Below, one piece after another: positions 23,690 through 28,066 of a DNA stretch of 35,393 nucleotides. This DNA is from a virus. How positions within the stretch are numbered: position 1 is the first letter of the stretch; the number at the start of each line of letters is the position of its first letter. The translations under genes were made by a program, and so were the position numbers. Where the stretch lies: positions 1 to 35,393 of the IMG/VR virus record IMGVR_UViG_3300034117_001895; one strand, written 5' to 3'. The notes below the pieces were generated by a model. The model was not told where the DNA came from. It made no database searches and was given only the letters and a program-made list of their open reading frames with translations.

Positions 23690-24130
23690 ATGACTGTGGA
23701 TATTGCTAAAATTTTTGAAGAGTGGGAAAAAGACGGGGCTATTGATCAATCAGACATATCAAGAGCCGCGACAAACATACCAAAAATTCATAATAAGTAC
23801 TTTAGACATTATGTTGAAGAAGGTCTTAAATTGAAGAAACTCAAAGCTGAGTATAAAATTCTAGTTCGAAACAAAACTGAATGGTATAAAGGCGACCTAG
23901 ATGAAGAAGAATTAAAAGAACATGGGTGGAAACCACAACCTCTCAAAATTCTTCGAGCAGACATACCTCAATATTTAGAATCAGATTCAGATATTATCAG
24001 AAAGACTTTAGTTATAGGCCTTCAAGAAGAAGTTGTCAGTTATTTAGAGTCTATTGTGAAACAAATCAATAATAGAAATTTCATTTTGAAGACTATTGTT
24101 GATTTTGAAAGATTTAAAGGTGGCGGGTGA
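23690..24130 (+). CDS. uvsY: UvsY recombination mediator
   Basis: This protein of about 146 aa loads the UvsX recombinase onto ssDNA covered by gp32. The hallmark is the C-terminal half: YLESDSDIIRKTLVIGLQEE, VVSYLESIVKQINNRNF and TIVDFERFKGG, which match the T4 UvsY hexamerisation region. The N-terminal half has EYKILVRNKTEWYKGDLDEE. ATG 23690, six bases after GGGGAG, is chosen over a TTG at 23642, which would be inside the promoter. The length agrees with T4 (137 aa). Its stop overlaps the GTG of uvsW (GTGA). Confidence 0.93.
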   Translation: MTVDIAKIFEEWEKDGAIDQSDISRAATNIPKIHNKYFRHYVEEGLKLKKLKAEYKILVRNKTEWYKGDLDEEELKEHGWKPQPLKILRADIPQYLESDSDIIRKTLVIGLQEEVVSYLESIVKQINNRNFILKTIVDFERFKGGG

Positions 24131-25476
24131 TATCAGCGGATAAAGTATACTTAGAAAAGATTAACGAAGTATTTGTAAAGGTAATAGCTGAACCATCAAT
24201 TAAGATGGAAATGAGTTCGCATTTTATGTTTGAAGTACCAGGCGCTAAATTCATGCCTGCTGTACGCAATAGAATGTGGGATGGTAAAGTAAGATTGCTG
24301 AATACGATGACCGGATATATATACGCTGGTTTAGTTCCGCACATTCAGAGGTTTTGCGCGCAGCGCGAGTACGAATGTGAATTGTCTAAAGATCTTCAAA
24401 GCACTGAGCCTGTGCCAGAAGATTATGGGTATGAATTAGCGAAGCAACTTAAGGTTCCAAATCAGTTCGAACTGCGTGACTATCAGAACACTGCAGTTAT
24501 TCACGCGATAAGACATAATCGCTCCCTTTTCCTTTCGCCAACAGCATCAGGAAAATCGTTCATAATTTACTTGATCATGGCTCATCATCTGTTGCTTGAT
24601 CGAAAAATACTTATTGTAGTACCAACAACTTCTCTTGTTGATCAGATGGCATCTGATTTTGTTGAATACAACAATGGCGAGAAGATGAATATTCACAAGA
24701 TCAGAGGAGGAGTTGATAAGACTGTTGATGCAGAGATTACTATAAGTACTTGGCAGTCTTTATATAAAATGCCGAAGCAATTTTTCGAAAAATACGATGT
24801 TGTTTTTGGTGATGAAGCACATCTTTTTAAGGCAAAATCTCTCACTTCTATACTCGAAAAGATGCCGCATGTAAAATATCGTTATGGTTTAACTGGAACT
24901 ATTGATGATGCGCTTGCTCATAAATTAATACTAGAAGGATTGTTTGGTGAATTATTTCGAGTAACAAAAACTAAAACACTTATAGATAACAATGTGTTAT
25001 CTCAATTCAATATAAAGGCCCTGGTTCTTAAATATCCCGATGATATTCGGAAAGAGAATAAGGGTAAAACTTATCAAGAAGAAATTGATTGGATAGTGCG
25101 TAATGAATTCAGGAATAGGTTTATTCGAAATCTCGCATGGAATTTAAAGGGTAACACCCTCATTCTATTTCAATATGTAGATAAGCACGGTCAAGCTTTA
25201 TATGATATGTTAAAGAAATCAGATGATCACAATGTGCATTTTGTTCATGGTGGTGTAAAAACAGATGATCGTGAAAACATTAGACATGAAGTACGTAATT
25301 CAAGAGGTGAACTTATTGAATTAACATTTGAAAAAGACACAATAAAGCTAAAGGCAGAAGATAAAGTTTTATTGAGCTCTGGTGAAATTATCTTTGCTAA
25401 AGATGTTACACTCGAACATGATGTATCTAACAATTGGATAAAAACAAACTTAAAGAATAATAGAAAAGAAAAATGA
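24127..25476 (+). CDS. uvsW: UvsW helicase, N-terminal part of a split gene
   Basis: This 449-aa protein covers most of the SF2 helicase UvsW, which unwinds branched DNA and R-loops and helps end origin-dependent replication. The N-terminal domain (1-110) has NRMWDGKVRLLNTMTGYIYA. The helicase core shows motif I PTASGKS 138-144, motif II DEAH 229-232, motif III LTGTI, motif IV LILFQY 345-350 and VHGGVKTDDRENIRHEV ending at V389. T4 UvsW (503 aa) continues at this point into motif V; here the frame runs instead through 60 foreign residues (390-449) and stops. Motifs V and VI are encoded separately at 25504-25803. The GTG start overlaps the uvsY stop. The two products may assemble, as known for some split phage enzymes, or the gene may be inactive. 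Confidence 0.9.
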   Translation: MISADKVYLEKINEVFVKVIAEPSIKMEMSSHFMFEVPGAKFMPAVRNRMWDGKVRLLNTMTGYIYAGLVPHIQRFCAQREYECELSKDLQSTEPVPEDYGYELAKQLKVPNQFELRDYQNTAVIHAIRHNRSLFLSPTASGKSFIIYLIMAHHLLLDRKILIVVPTTSLVDQMASDFVEYNNGEKMNIHKIRGGVDKTVDAEITISTWQSLYKMPKQFFEKYDVVFGDEAHLFKAKSLTSILEKMPHVKYRYGLTGTIDDALAHKLILEGLFGELFRVTKTKTLIDNNVLSQFNIKALVLKYPDDIRKENKGKTYQEEIDWIVRNEFRNRFIRNLAWNLKGNTLILFQYVDKHGQALYDMLKKSDDHNVHFVHGGVKTDDRENIRHEVRNSRGELIELTFEKDTIKLKAEDKVLLSSGEIIFAKDVTLEHDVSNNWIKTNLKNNRKEK

Positions 25477-25502
25477 AACCAACAAACATAAAGAAGGAGG
25501 TG
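25294..25502 (+). other. About 209-bp insertion splitting uvsW before motif V
   Basis: UvsW-like sequence stops after HEV (to base 25293) and resumes in the DNA as tat gaa cgc aac (from 25503). The intervening 209 bases are not a multiple of three. They encode a 60-residue tail in the upstream frame, including GELIELTFEKDTIKLKAEDK and LLSSGEIIFAKDVTLEHDV. That pattern recalls block B of Hint/intein domains but lacks the T-x-x-H signature. The insert ends with a consensus ribosome site AAGGAGGT (25494-25501). No homing endonuclease is present. Boundaries are estimated to within a few bases. Confidence 0.65.
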
Positions 25503-25503
25503 T

Positions 25504-25803
25504 ATGAACGCAACATTATTTGTGCTTCATACGGTACCTTTCTCGACTGGTATAAATATTCCAGAACTTGATAATTTGATATTTGCGTCGCCTTCAAAGG
25601 GTAAGATTCGCAATCTTCAATCAATTGGCAGAGTCTTGCGAAAAGGTAAAGACAAGTCGCATGCCGTATTATACGACATTGTCGATGATCTTCAATGGAA
25701 AAATTCTCAAAATTTTGCAATAAAACATTTTATAGAGCGCGTTAAAATATACGGAGATGAGGGATTTCAATTCAAAATCCTAAGCATTGATATAGGAGGC
25801 TAA
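25504..25803 (+). CDS. uvsW: UvsW helicase, C-terminal part of a split gene
   Basis: This 99-aa protein begins at ATG 25504, three bases after AAGGAGGT. From FSTGINIPELDNLIFASPSK on, it is the end of UvsW: motif V (FSTGINI), motif VI (QSIGRVLRKG) and VLYDIVDDLQW, ending like T4 UvsW with RVKIYGDEGFQFK. The first eleven residues (MNATLFVLHTV) are the conserved stretch before motif V read in the wrong frame. In another frame the same DNA encodes YERNIICASYGTF, the expected helicase sequence, so skipping one T near 25539 would restore it. An alternative ATG at 25473, overlapping the upstream TGA, opens that other frame. Separate translation, a frameshift or a sequencing error are all possible. 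Confidence 0.85.
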   Translation: MNATLFVLHTVPFSTGINIPELDNLIFASPSKGKIRNLQSIGRVLRKGKDKSHAVLYDIVDDLQWKNSQNFAIKHFIERVKIYGDEGFQFKILSIDIGG

Positions 25804-25805
25804 TA

Positions 25806-26168
25806 ATGGAACTCTATCATATTAAGTTTAAAAACGGAGAAGATCTTTTAGGCTATATAGATGATATTGCCACAAATCTAATAGAAATCAAATCACCGAT
25901 TACAGTATCAATTGATCCACATTTAGGATTATTTGCTAAAAGCTGGTTGTTATTCGCAGATACAAATTCTGCGGTGATCGATAAGTCTAACATAATCTTG
26001 CTTAGCAAGGCATCGAATACGGCAGCAGAATATTATGATGAATTCATCCATAAGCAGCAGGAACATGCTAGTCGTAAGACAATGACAGAGGATTCATCGA
26101 TGAATCAAGAGTTTGAAGATATCTTCACAGCTATGATAGAATCCAAAAATACTGTTAGAAAACATTAG
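25806..26168 (+). CDS. LSm/Hfq-like small protein, conserved near uvsW
   Basis: This 120-aa protein starts two bases after the uvsW C-part, with AGGAGG upstream. The first 75 residues look like an Sm fold: strand pattern YHIKFKNGEDLLGYIDDIAT, then LIEIKSPITVSIDP and NIILLSKAS. A helical tail rich in Glu, Gln and Lys follows. Similar Sm-like proteins are seen after uvsW in T4-like marine phages and are normally left without function. RNA binding would be a reasonable guess but no direct evidence exists here. A leftward promoter just downstream would produce RNA antisense to this gene. Confidence 0.6.
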   Translation: MELYHIKFKNGEDLLGYIDDIATNLIEIKSPITVSIDPHLGLFAKSWLLFADTNSAVIDKSNIILLSKASNTAAEYYDEFIHKQQEHASRKTMTEDSSMNQEFEDIFTAMIESKNTVRKH

Positions 26169-27914: not shown

Positions 27915-28027
27915 TGCAGGCAAAGATAGTAGAGCGCAAACTCAACTCGGGAGAAACTGAGTATGGAGTTCAATATTCTGATGGACATATTACTTGGTTT
28001 AGTTCATTACCTAGATTACCTAGGTGA
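27914..28027 (+). CDS. 37-residue protein between gp47 and gp46
   Basis: A short frame beginning at ATG 27914, which shares one base with the gp47 stop, and ending at TGA 28025-28027. The product begins MQAKIVERKLNSGETEYGVQ and contains YSDGHITW. Small genes at this position are common in T4-like phages and often share a YGV.Y.DG..TW pattern. Nothing else is known. It fills most of the 152-bp gap between gp47 and gp46, which supports it as a real gene. Confidence 0.55.
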   Translation: MQAKIVERKLNSGETEYGVQYSDGHITWFSSLPRLPR

Positions 28028-28066
28028 GAACACCGCCAAAGAACAAAATAGAAAGAAGCAAATATA

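Follow-up and report, generated by a model that had tools for sequence, protein, structure and literature searches.

The window, a viral DNA stretch of 35,393 nucleotides (positions 1-35,393 of IMG/VR record IMGVR_UViG_3300034117_001895), carries uvsW in the gene order uvsY-uvsW-small gene-gp55, which matches that of Sinorhizobium phage phiN3 and Methylophilales phage Melnitz. Two open reading frames cover the gene on the + strand, as given in a preliminary description of this DNA. The first, at 24127-25476, encodes 449 aa, comprising 394 T4-type UvsW residues and 55 foreign residues; the second, at 25504-25803, encodes 99 aa and overlaps the remainder of UvsW. Pfam analysis divided Helicase_C between the two frames, with profile positions 12-65 in the first, together with UvsW_N and ResIII, and the rest (profile positions 68-110) in the second. 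Contigs from three other metagenomes (L007, L008 and L009) were identical to the window over 25100-25860. As four contigs from different metagenomes agree, assembly or sequencing error was ruled out as the cause, and the split of uvsW is genuine. Elsewhere in the window, positions 28001-28041 showed several differences and small insertions relative to the otherwise near-identical contig L007. In phiN3, a MobE endonuclease gene lies on the opposite strand directly before an intact uvsW (L005 784-1449). A promoter and terminator scan found nothing useful.

To define the insertion, 80 related uvsW loci were fetched from viral contigs, 78 of which were long enough to check. In all 78, uvsW was unbroken at the insertion point and carried no insert, so the foreign segment is not ordinary UvsW sequence, the possibility against which the preliminary description had set its claim. 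The closest relative, L041 (79% identical), presents the empty site in a single frame, RHDVRKTKG followed by NIICASYGTFSTGIN (NIICASYGTF STGIN...), where the window reads RHEVRNSRG, 203 nt, NIICASYGTF, an additional C and STGIN. The native N-terminal part (24127-25308; UvsW_N, ResIII/DEAD and the start of Helicase_C by Pfam), delimited by alignment with 26 relatives and with L041, ends in ...RHEVRNSRG. Homology thus does break off as first described, though at G394 (25308) and not at V389, and the insert, first put at about 209 bp, is real with boundaries at 25309-25511 (203 nt), exactly between ...RNSRG and NIICASYGTF.

The insert supplies three elements. An element-derived C-terminal tail of 55 aa with its TGA stop (25309-25476, ELIELTFEKD...DVSNNWIKTNLKNNRKEK) is absent from intact relatives. 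Its stop overlaps the start codon of the next frame in the sequence ATGA (25473-25476), an overlap also present in L139 and in Vibrio phages D506 and K476. From this ATG runs a 13-aa lead, MKPTNIKKEVYER (25473-25511, frame 0), of the conserved MKPxxI.K type. The native motif V strand NIICASYGTF follows in frame 0 (25512-25541), with three differences from L041 that are all silent in that frame. The C-terminal piece, STGINIPELDN... to the stop (25543-25803), retains an intact motif VI and the end of Helicase_C, as found by Pfam and by comparison with L041.

Related split-uvsW cassettes

In Dickeya and Vibrio phages, and in about 35 viral contigs, uvsW is interrupted at this very position by a tail and MKPx lead of the same kind. 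Further cassette loci, collected by repeated profile scans of viral contigs, all lay in uvsW at the identical point. The window matches the LIMEstone/Vibrio-type mobile cassette in its insertion point before motif V, in its upstream tail (..DDV.D.WI) and in its downstream MKPx lead. Its tail is 41-45% identical to that of the Dickeya phage split UvsW (45% over 51 aa), and the MKPxxI.K lead is kept in LIMEstone, the Vibrio phages, L018, L126-L130, L147 and L150-L159. A split uvsW with an endonuclease is already known from LIMEstone. In the Dickeya phage LIMEstone1, UvsW-N is followed by an HNH endonuclease (I-LimI) and then by a UvsW-C beginning MKPTKINK; with the same site and a homologous tail and lead, this is a true relative of the window. 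It differs in keeping its endonuclease, in its intact downstream frame and in having no hairpin of the kind described below, and its 2012 description did not note the tails.

Homing endonuclease genes often lie between the uvsW halves in these relatives (L018, L126-L130, L140, L145, L150, L151, L159 and LIMEstone). They belong to two unrelated families, HNH and SegE-like GIY-YIG (L018), that occupy the same place; SegE of T4 itself targets uvsW (PMC2988022). This optional feature is absent from the window, where stop and start overlap, and is missing from at least four other lineages: L139, L156/L158, L019, and Vibrio D506/K476, in which tail and lead overlap directly. Because relatives with the same tail, lead and site recurrently carry an endonuclease, the window cassette is taken to have lost its own, in agreement with the original proposal of a homing element minus its endonuclease. 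In Vibrio phage 1.244.A (L122 1304-3049), tail and lead are fused in one open reading frame, forming a 50-aa insertion before motif V (...KKRISLDFGSDFIEVDFDDIFTTKSGDKRAIDLKVGDVTEEHGKVCKTKELRG...). This insertion contains a motif, RAIDLKVGDV, like that of inteins.

Removal of the insert at the RNA or protein level, as a group I intron or a split intein, would yield one continuous UvsW. In their 2012 description, the LIMEstone authors termed the endonuclease a uvsW intron (PMC3296691). In the window, however, the insert is only 203 nt, no Rfam intron was found at threshold and no group I core was recognisable, so that a group I intron was rejected; NIICASYGTF, moreover, is located after the insert and differs from L041 silently only. 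The tail does weakly resemble the middle of an intein (2/2500 shuffles for the L019 intein and 0/2500 for gp41-1 IntN), but the Npu and Lbab1 inteins gave no signal, the hhalign probability was 23% and no Pfam Hint match was obtained. Tail and lead show no block A, no Cys, Ser or Ala at intein position 1 and no HN-C/S/T end. A split intein or intein remnant was rejected on the weakness of the similarity and the absence of catalytic residues, and removal by either route is considered highly improbable.

Fractured genes with split inteins of the gp41-1 type are similar in having two halves with a free endonuclease between them, and the window tail is weakly like the second half of IntN, as its basic lead is weakly like the start of IntC. 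The difference lies in the catalytic residues, which the window tail and lead have at neither end and without which they cannot splice. Derivation from a split intein's docking half is conceivable, with weak support.

Such tails were also sought in other genes. A degenerate DNA search for DVDDNWI returned 15 loci, among which only three, already-known uvsW cases, were real, and the LIMEstone split DNA polymerase carried no such tail. The C-ends of PHROG 13169 (DNA polymerase family, E 0.002) and PHROG 16259 (helicase family, E 0.097) weakly match the L019 tail and are perhaps other split genes of this kind. The uvsW genes annotated as split in P-HM1 (L003 1489-2968) and ACG-2014d US94 (L004 1486-3041) break elsewhere, look unrelated and were set aside.

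A second frame break within motif V

The window carries two lesions relative to L041, the 203-nt insertion and one extra base 30 nt downstream of it, which the earlier picture of one insertion had overlooked. After NIICASYGTF in frame 0 the window reads TTT C TCG (25539-25545; extra base C 25542 or equivalent), where L041 has ACA TTT TCT ACA, and STGIN... then continues in the +1 frame. The ribosome binding site and start codon of the preliminary description, AAGGAGGT (25494-25501) and ATG 25504, are both real. Together (AAGGAGGTGTATG, 25494-25506) they open the frame of the C-terminal piece, not that of NIICASYGTF, and fall within or beside the 5′ arm of the hairpin described below. A restart at ATG 25504, in the frame of STGIN, would read the NIICASYGTF codons as NATLFVLHTVPF. 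ATG 25504 thus cannot encode NIICASYGTF, and a restart there as the source of a normal second half, as had been proposed, is not supported. Motif VI does lie in the separate 99-aa frame, but motif V, NIICASYGTF, is encoded in frame 0. Judged from its reading frames, the conserved second half begins at ATG 25473, and a switch of frame is required at 25539-25543.

With the native motif V written as IIVAS-X-GTF-STG, eight independent cassettes, among them the window, proved to have the frame broken within the same few codons. The break is a +1 after TTT in the window, L018, L150/L154-L158 (L157 being in frame) and L159, and a +1 after GGA in L153. Other insertions fall exactly between X and G, with 11 nt in L126-L130, 11 nt in L019, 6 nt in L147/L148 and 4 nt in L151, and each starts with an in-frame stop (TGA, TGA, TAG and TGA, respectively). 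The take-off and landing codons are identical in L126 (TCG TGAATGAT TCG) and both encode Leu in L019 (CTG/CTC). They are unlike in L147 (TAT/AAC), L151 (TAT/GAC) and also L153, so that one cognate-slip mechanism does not fit every case. Either the details must vary among these three or the recoding model set out below would be incomplete.

The frame is intact in LIMEstone, the Vibrio phages, L139, L140, L142, L145 and L157. In-frame copies among L140-L157 have the site changed by substitutions instead (ASSGCF, ASSNCF or ASSATF; ASSNCF in L145). All variants alter the same few bases, which is what concealment of a cut site would predict. Where the endonuclease frame is intact, the type of break followed the endonuclease family, GIY-YIG occurring with +1 (L018, L150, L153, L154 and L159) and HNH with a stop-type insertion (L126-L130 and L151), an indirect hint that the indel may protect against self-cleavage. 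LIMEstone and L145, which have an HNH endonuclease and no frame break, are counter-cases. No recurrent, endonuclease-specific and hairpin-linked frame break was found in the open-access literature searched.

The junction hairpin and the second reading frame

An RNA hairpin was predicted at the junction in the window (25496-25538, + strand; core 25501-25533; -14.1 kcal/mol, z -3.1), with the end of the lead as its 5′ arm and motif V codons as its 3′ arm. In disrupted copies, the lead end pairs with the native IIVAS-X codons and the 3′ arm ends at codon X. The hairpin occurred in every one of the 12 copies with a broken frame, at z -2.1 to -5.4 over 8 distinct sequences, that of the window being weaker than those of the stop class, and in none of eight frame-intact copies (z -0.7 to +1.2). 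Intact uvsW relatives were also without it. Counted by lineage, it was present in 8/8 disrupted versus 0/7 frame-intact cassettes (p about 1.6e-4, Fisher). The arms diverge greatly in sequence among lineages, with pairing kept. The hairpin is tied to the frame break and not to the endonuclease, because it persists in the window and L156/L158, whose endonuclease is gone, and is absent from LIMEstone and L145, which possess one.

This distribution bears on whether the cassette simply inactivated uvsW, with the frame breaks as pseudogene damage. A decaying gene would fit the observation that no disrupted copy has a conventional continuous second open reading frame from the lead. It does not fit breaks that cluster in a stretch of about 10 nt across eight lineages whose roughly 500 codons are otherwise free of stops and frameshifts, or hairpins that go with the breaks and only with the breaks. 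Changes in the C-part are, in addition, mostly silent. Of 86 codons compared there between the window and L041, 50 differ silently and 14 by replacement, and copies of the L150 group, with and without endonuclease, differ by 0-1 replacements versus 2-5 silent changes. L126 and L130 are different phages, with N-part DNA 84.5% identical, and beyond the landing codon their C-parts show 32 silent and 6 replacement changes in 88 codons. This predominance of silent changes indicates that the frame beyond the break codes for a protein under selection and that the C-part downstream is, on these codon counts, under purifying selection; decay is very unlikely. In the same pair of phages, the tails differ at 3/165 positions (98% identical) and the leads are identical at 65/65 nt up to the landing codon. 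Set against the N-part identity, these values indicate that the cassette moved as one block, ending on the right at the landing codon, at the proposed cut site.

Separate initiation of the C-terminal piece is the main rival to recoding. The gene would then be in three pieces, the lead frame serving as a short leader, and the relative frame of lead and C-terminal piece would be irrelevant. This is possible because a GTG or TTG occurs in the C-frame about 21 nt before STG in most disrupted copies, and ATG 25504, further upstream and preceded by AAGGAGGT within 25494-25506, in the window. The TTG at -21, however, arises automatically from the native I/V-A codons read out of frame, in L147 neither ATG nor GTG or TTG is available ahead of STG in the C-frame, and the Shine-Dalgarno sequence and ATG 25504 are a short 2-5 nt apart. 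Such initiation would, on the other side, suit the GTGA overlaps of L126 and L019. The hairpin can be read either way: T4 genes 38 and 25 make use of one that separates the Shine-Dalgarno sequence from the start codon (PMC3014915), but in the window and L018 it would hide the start codon. Finally, initiation inside motif V would swap NIICASYGTF for unrelated residues, whereas its frame-0 codons differ from those of L041 silently only. We regard separate initiation as possible but doubtful.

A candidate recoding cassette

Recoding at the break is the reading we prefer. The window probably holds what remains of a mobile cassette that splits uvsW at a fixed site, a reading that we hold jointly with target protection, recoding and docking. 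By analogy with T4 mobA and gene 60, frameshifting or bypass would restore the protein and the tails would dock its halves. A full cassette would consist of the upstream-piece tail and stop, a homing endonuclease gene, the MKPx lead, the hairpin and an altered target in motif V. The endonuclease would cut unsplit uvsW in motif V (AS-Y|GTF or GTF|STG), the small indel would shield the cassette's own copy from cleavage, and recoding would repair the cost of the indel. In the window, ribosomes starting at ATG 25473 would pass the indel by programmed +1 frameshifting, with tRNA-Phe slipping from UUU to UUC. In stop-type cassettes they would pass by a short bypass, which in L126 would be a hop from TCG to TCG over the stop. 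The hairpin, ending at the take-off region, would help ribosomes across. The +1 type predicts that the lost endonuclease of the window was of the GIY-YIG (SegE-like) kind.

Docking of tail and lead would make the two UvsW pieces one working helicase. The C-end of the tail was acidic in 7/7 tested (-3 to -6 over the last 12 residues) and the lead was basic in 6/7. AlphaFold2 modelled the tail as four short strands with a helix at the C-end, at moderate confidence (pLDDT about 70-84). Tail and lead probably dock, and it is plausible that activity needs assembly of both pieces, given that tail and lead are conserved and that a natural fused version exists. The tail/lead pair could be a compact natural docking module.

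In T4, mobA splits gene 39/60; early in the downstream gene lies a 50-nt bypass, opened by a stop and running from GGA to GGA, whose proposed role is protection from the endonuclease (PMC5009743, PMC3014915). The uvsW cassettes resemble this system in having a conserved T4 gene interrupted by that of an endonuclease, in a small second insertion that begins with a stop early in the downstream piece (stop class), in the stem-loop at take-off, in the matched codons of L126 and in the proposed protection from self-cleavage. They differ in the host gene, uvsW, and the endonuclease, HNH or GIY-YIG; in insertions of 1, 4, 6 or 11 nt versus 50; in a hairpin upstream of the gap, where that of T4 lies within it; and in conserved docking-like tails, in many phages versus one, with bypass here a prediction. 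The window itself has the frame-breaking second insertion near the downstream start (+1 at 25542) and the stem-loop at the shift site. Being of the +1 type, it has no stop after take-off and no matched landing codon. Such a stop is present in L126, L019, L147 and L151, with codons matched in L126 and, by amino acid, in L019.

Among T4-type phages, gene 60 has been regarded as the sole case (PMC3014915), so that the question of why bypassing arises and persists rested on this one example. We somewhat favour the broader reading that uvsW hosts a widespread family of endonuclease-linked recoding cassettes. Each endonuclease family would leave its own frame-breaking protection (+1 after GTF for GIY-YIG, a stop-led 4-11 nt for HNH), with a 5′ hairpin driving the crossing. 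Several would be independent counterparts in kind of gene 60, some outlasting their endonuclease. The eight cassettes offer natural variation in shift size (+1, +4, +6 and +11), hairpin sequence and endonuclease family, with the frame-intact cassettes as controls. The idea that recoding evolves as self-immunity of homing endonucleases becomes directly testable.

The earlier comparison with Aeh1 nrdA-a/mobE/nrdA-b was right in kind, in that an endonuclease splits a T4-like enzyme gene whose pieces carry C- and N-terminal tails and are presumed to assemble. The Aeh1 NrdA tails reportedly work in assembly of the split enzyme pieces. They differ in sequence from the uvsW tails, no homology being seen on comparison by eye, and in Aeh1 the endonuclease is still present and no frame break is reported.

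Two helicase genes carried a true or an apparent intein in motif II. A single uvsW in L019 (1863-4588; IMGVR_UViG_3300031631_000074) has two tail-type splits and a true mini-intein (Pfam PT-HINT 2.7e-16, Intein_splicing 1.9e-13), and the UvsW-like helicase of Lactobacillus phage Lbab1 (L123 1496-4306) has an apparent full, endonuclease-bearing intein (DEC...HNCHHS).
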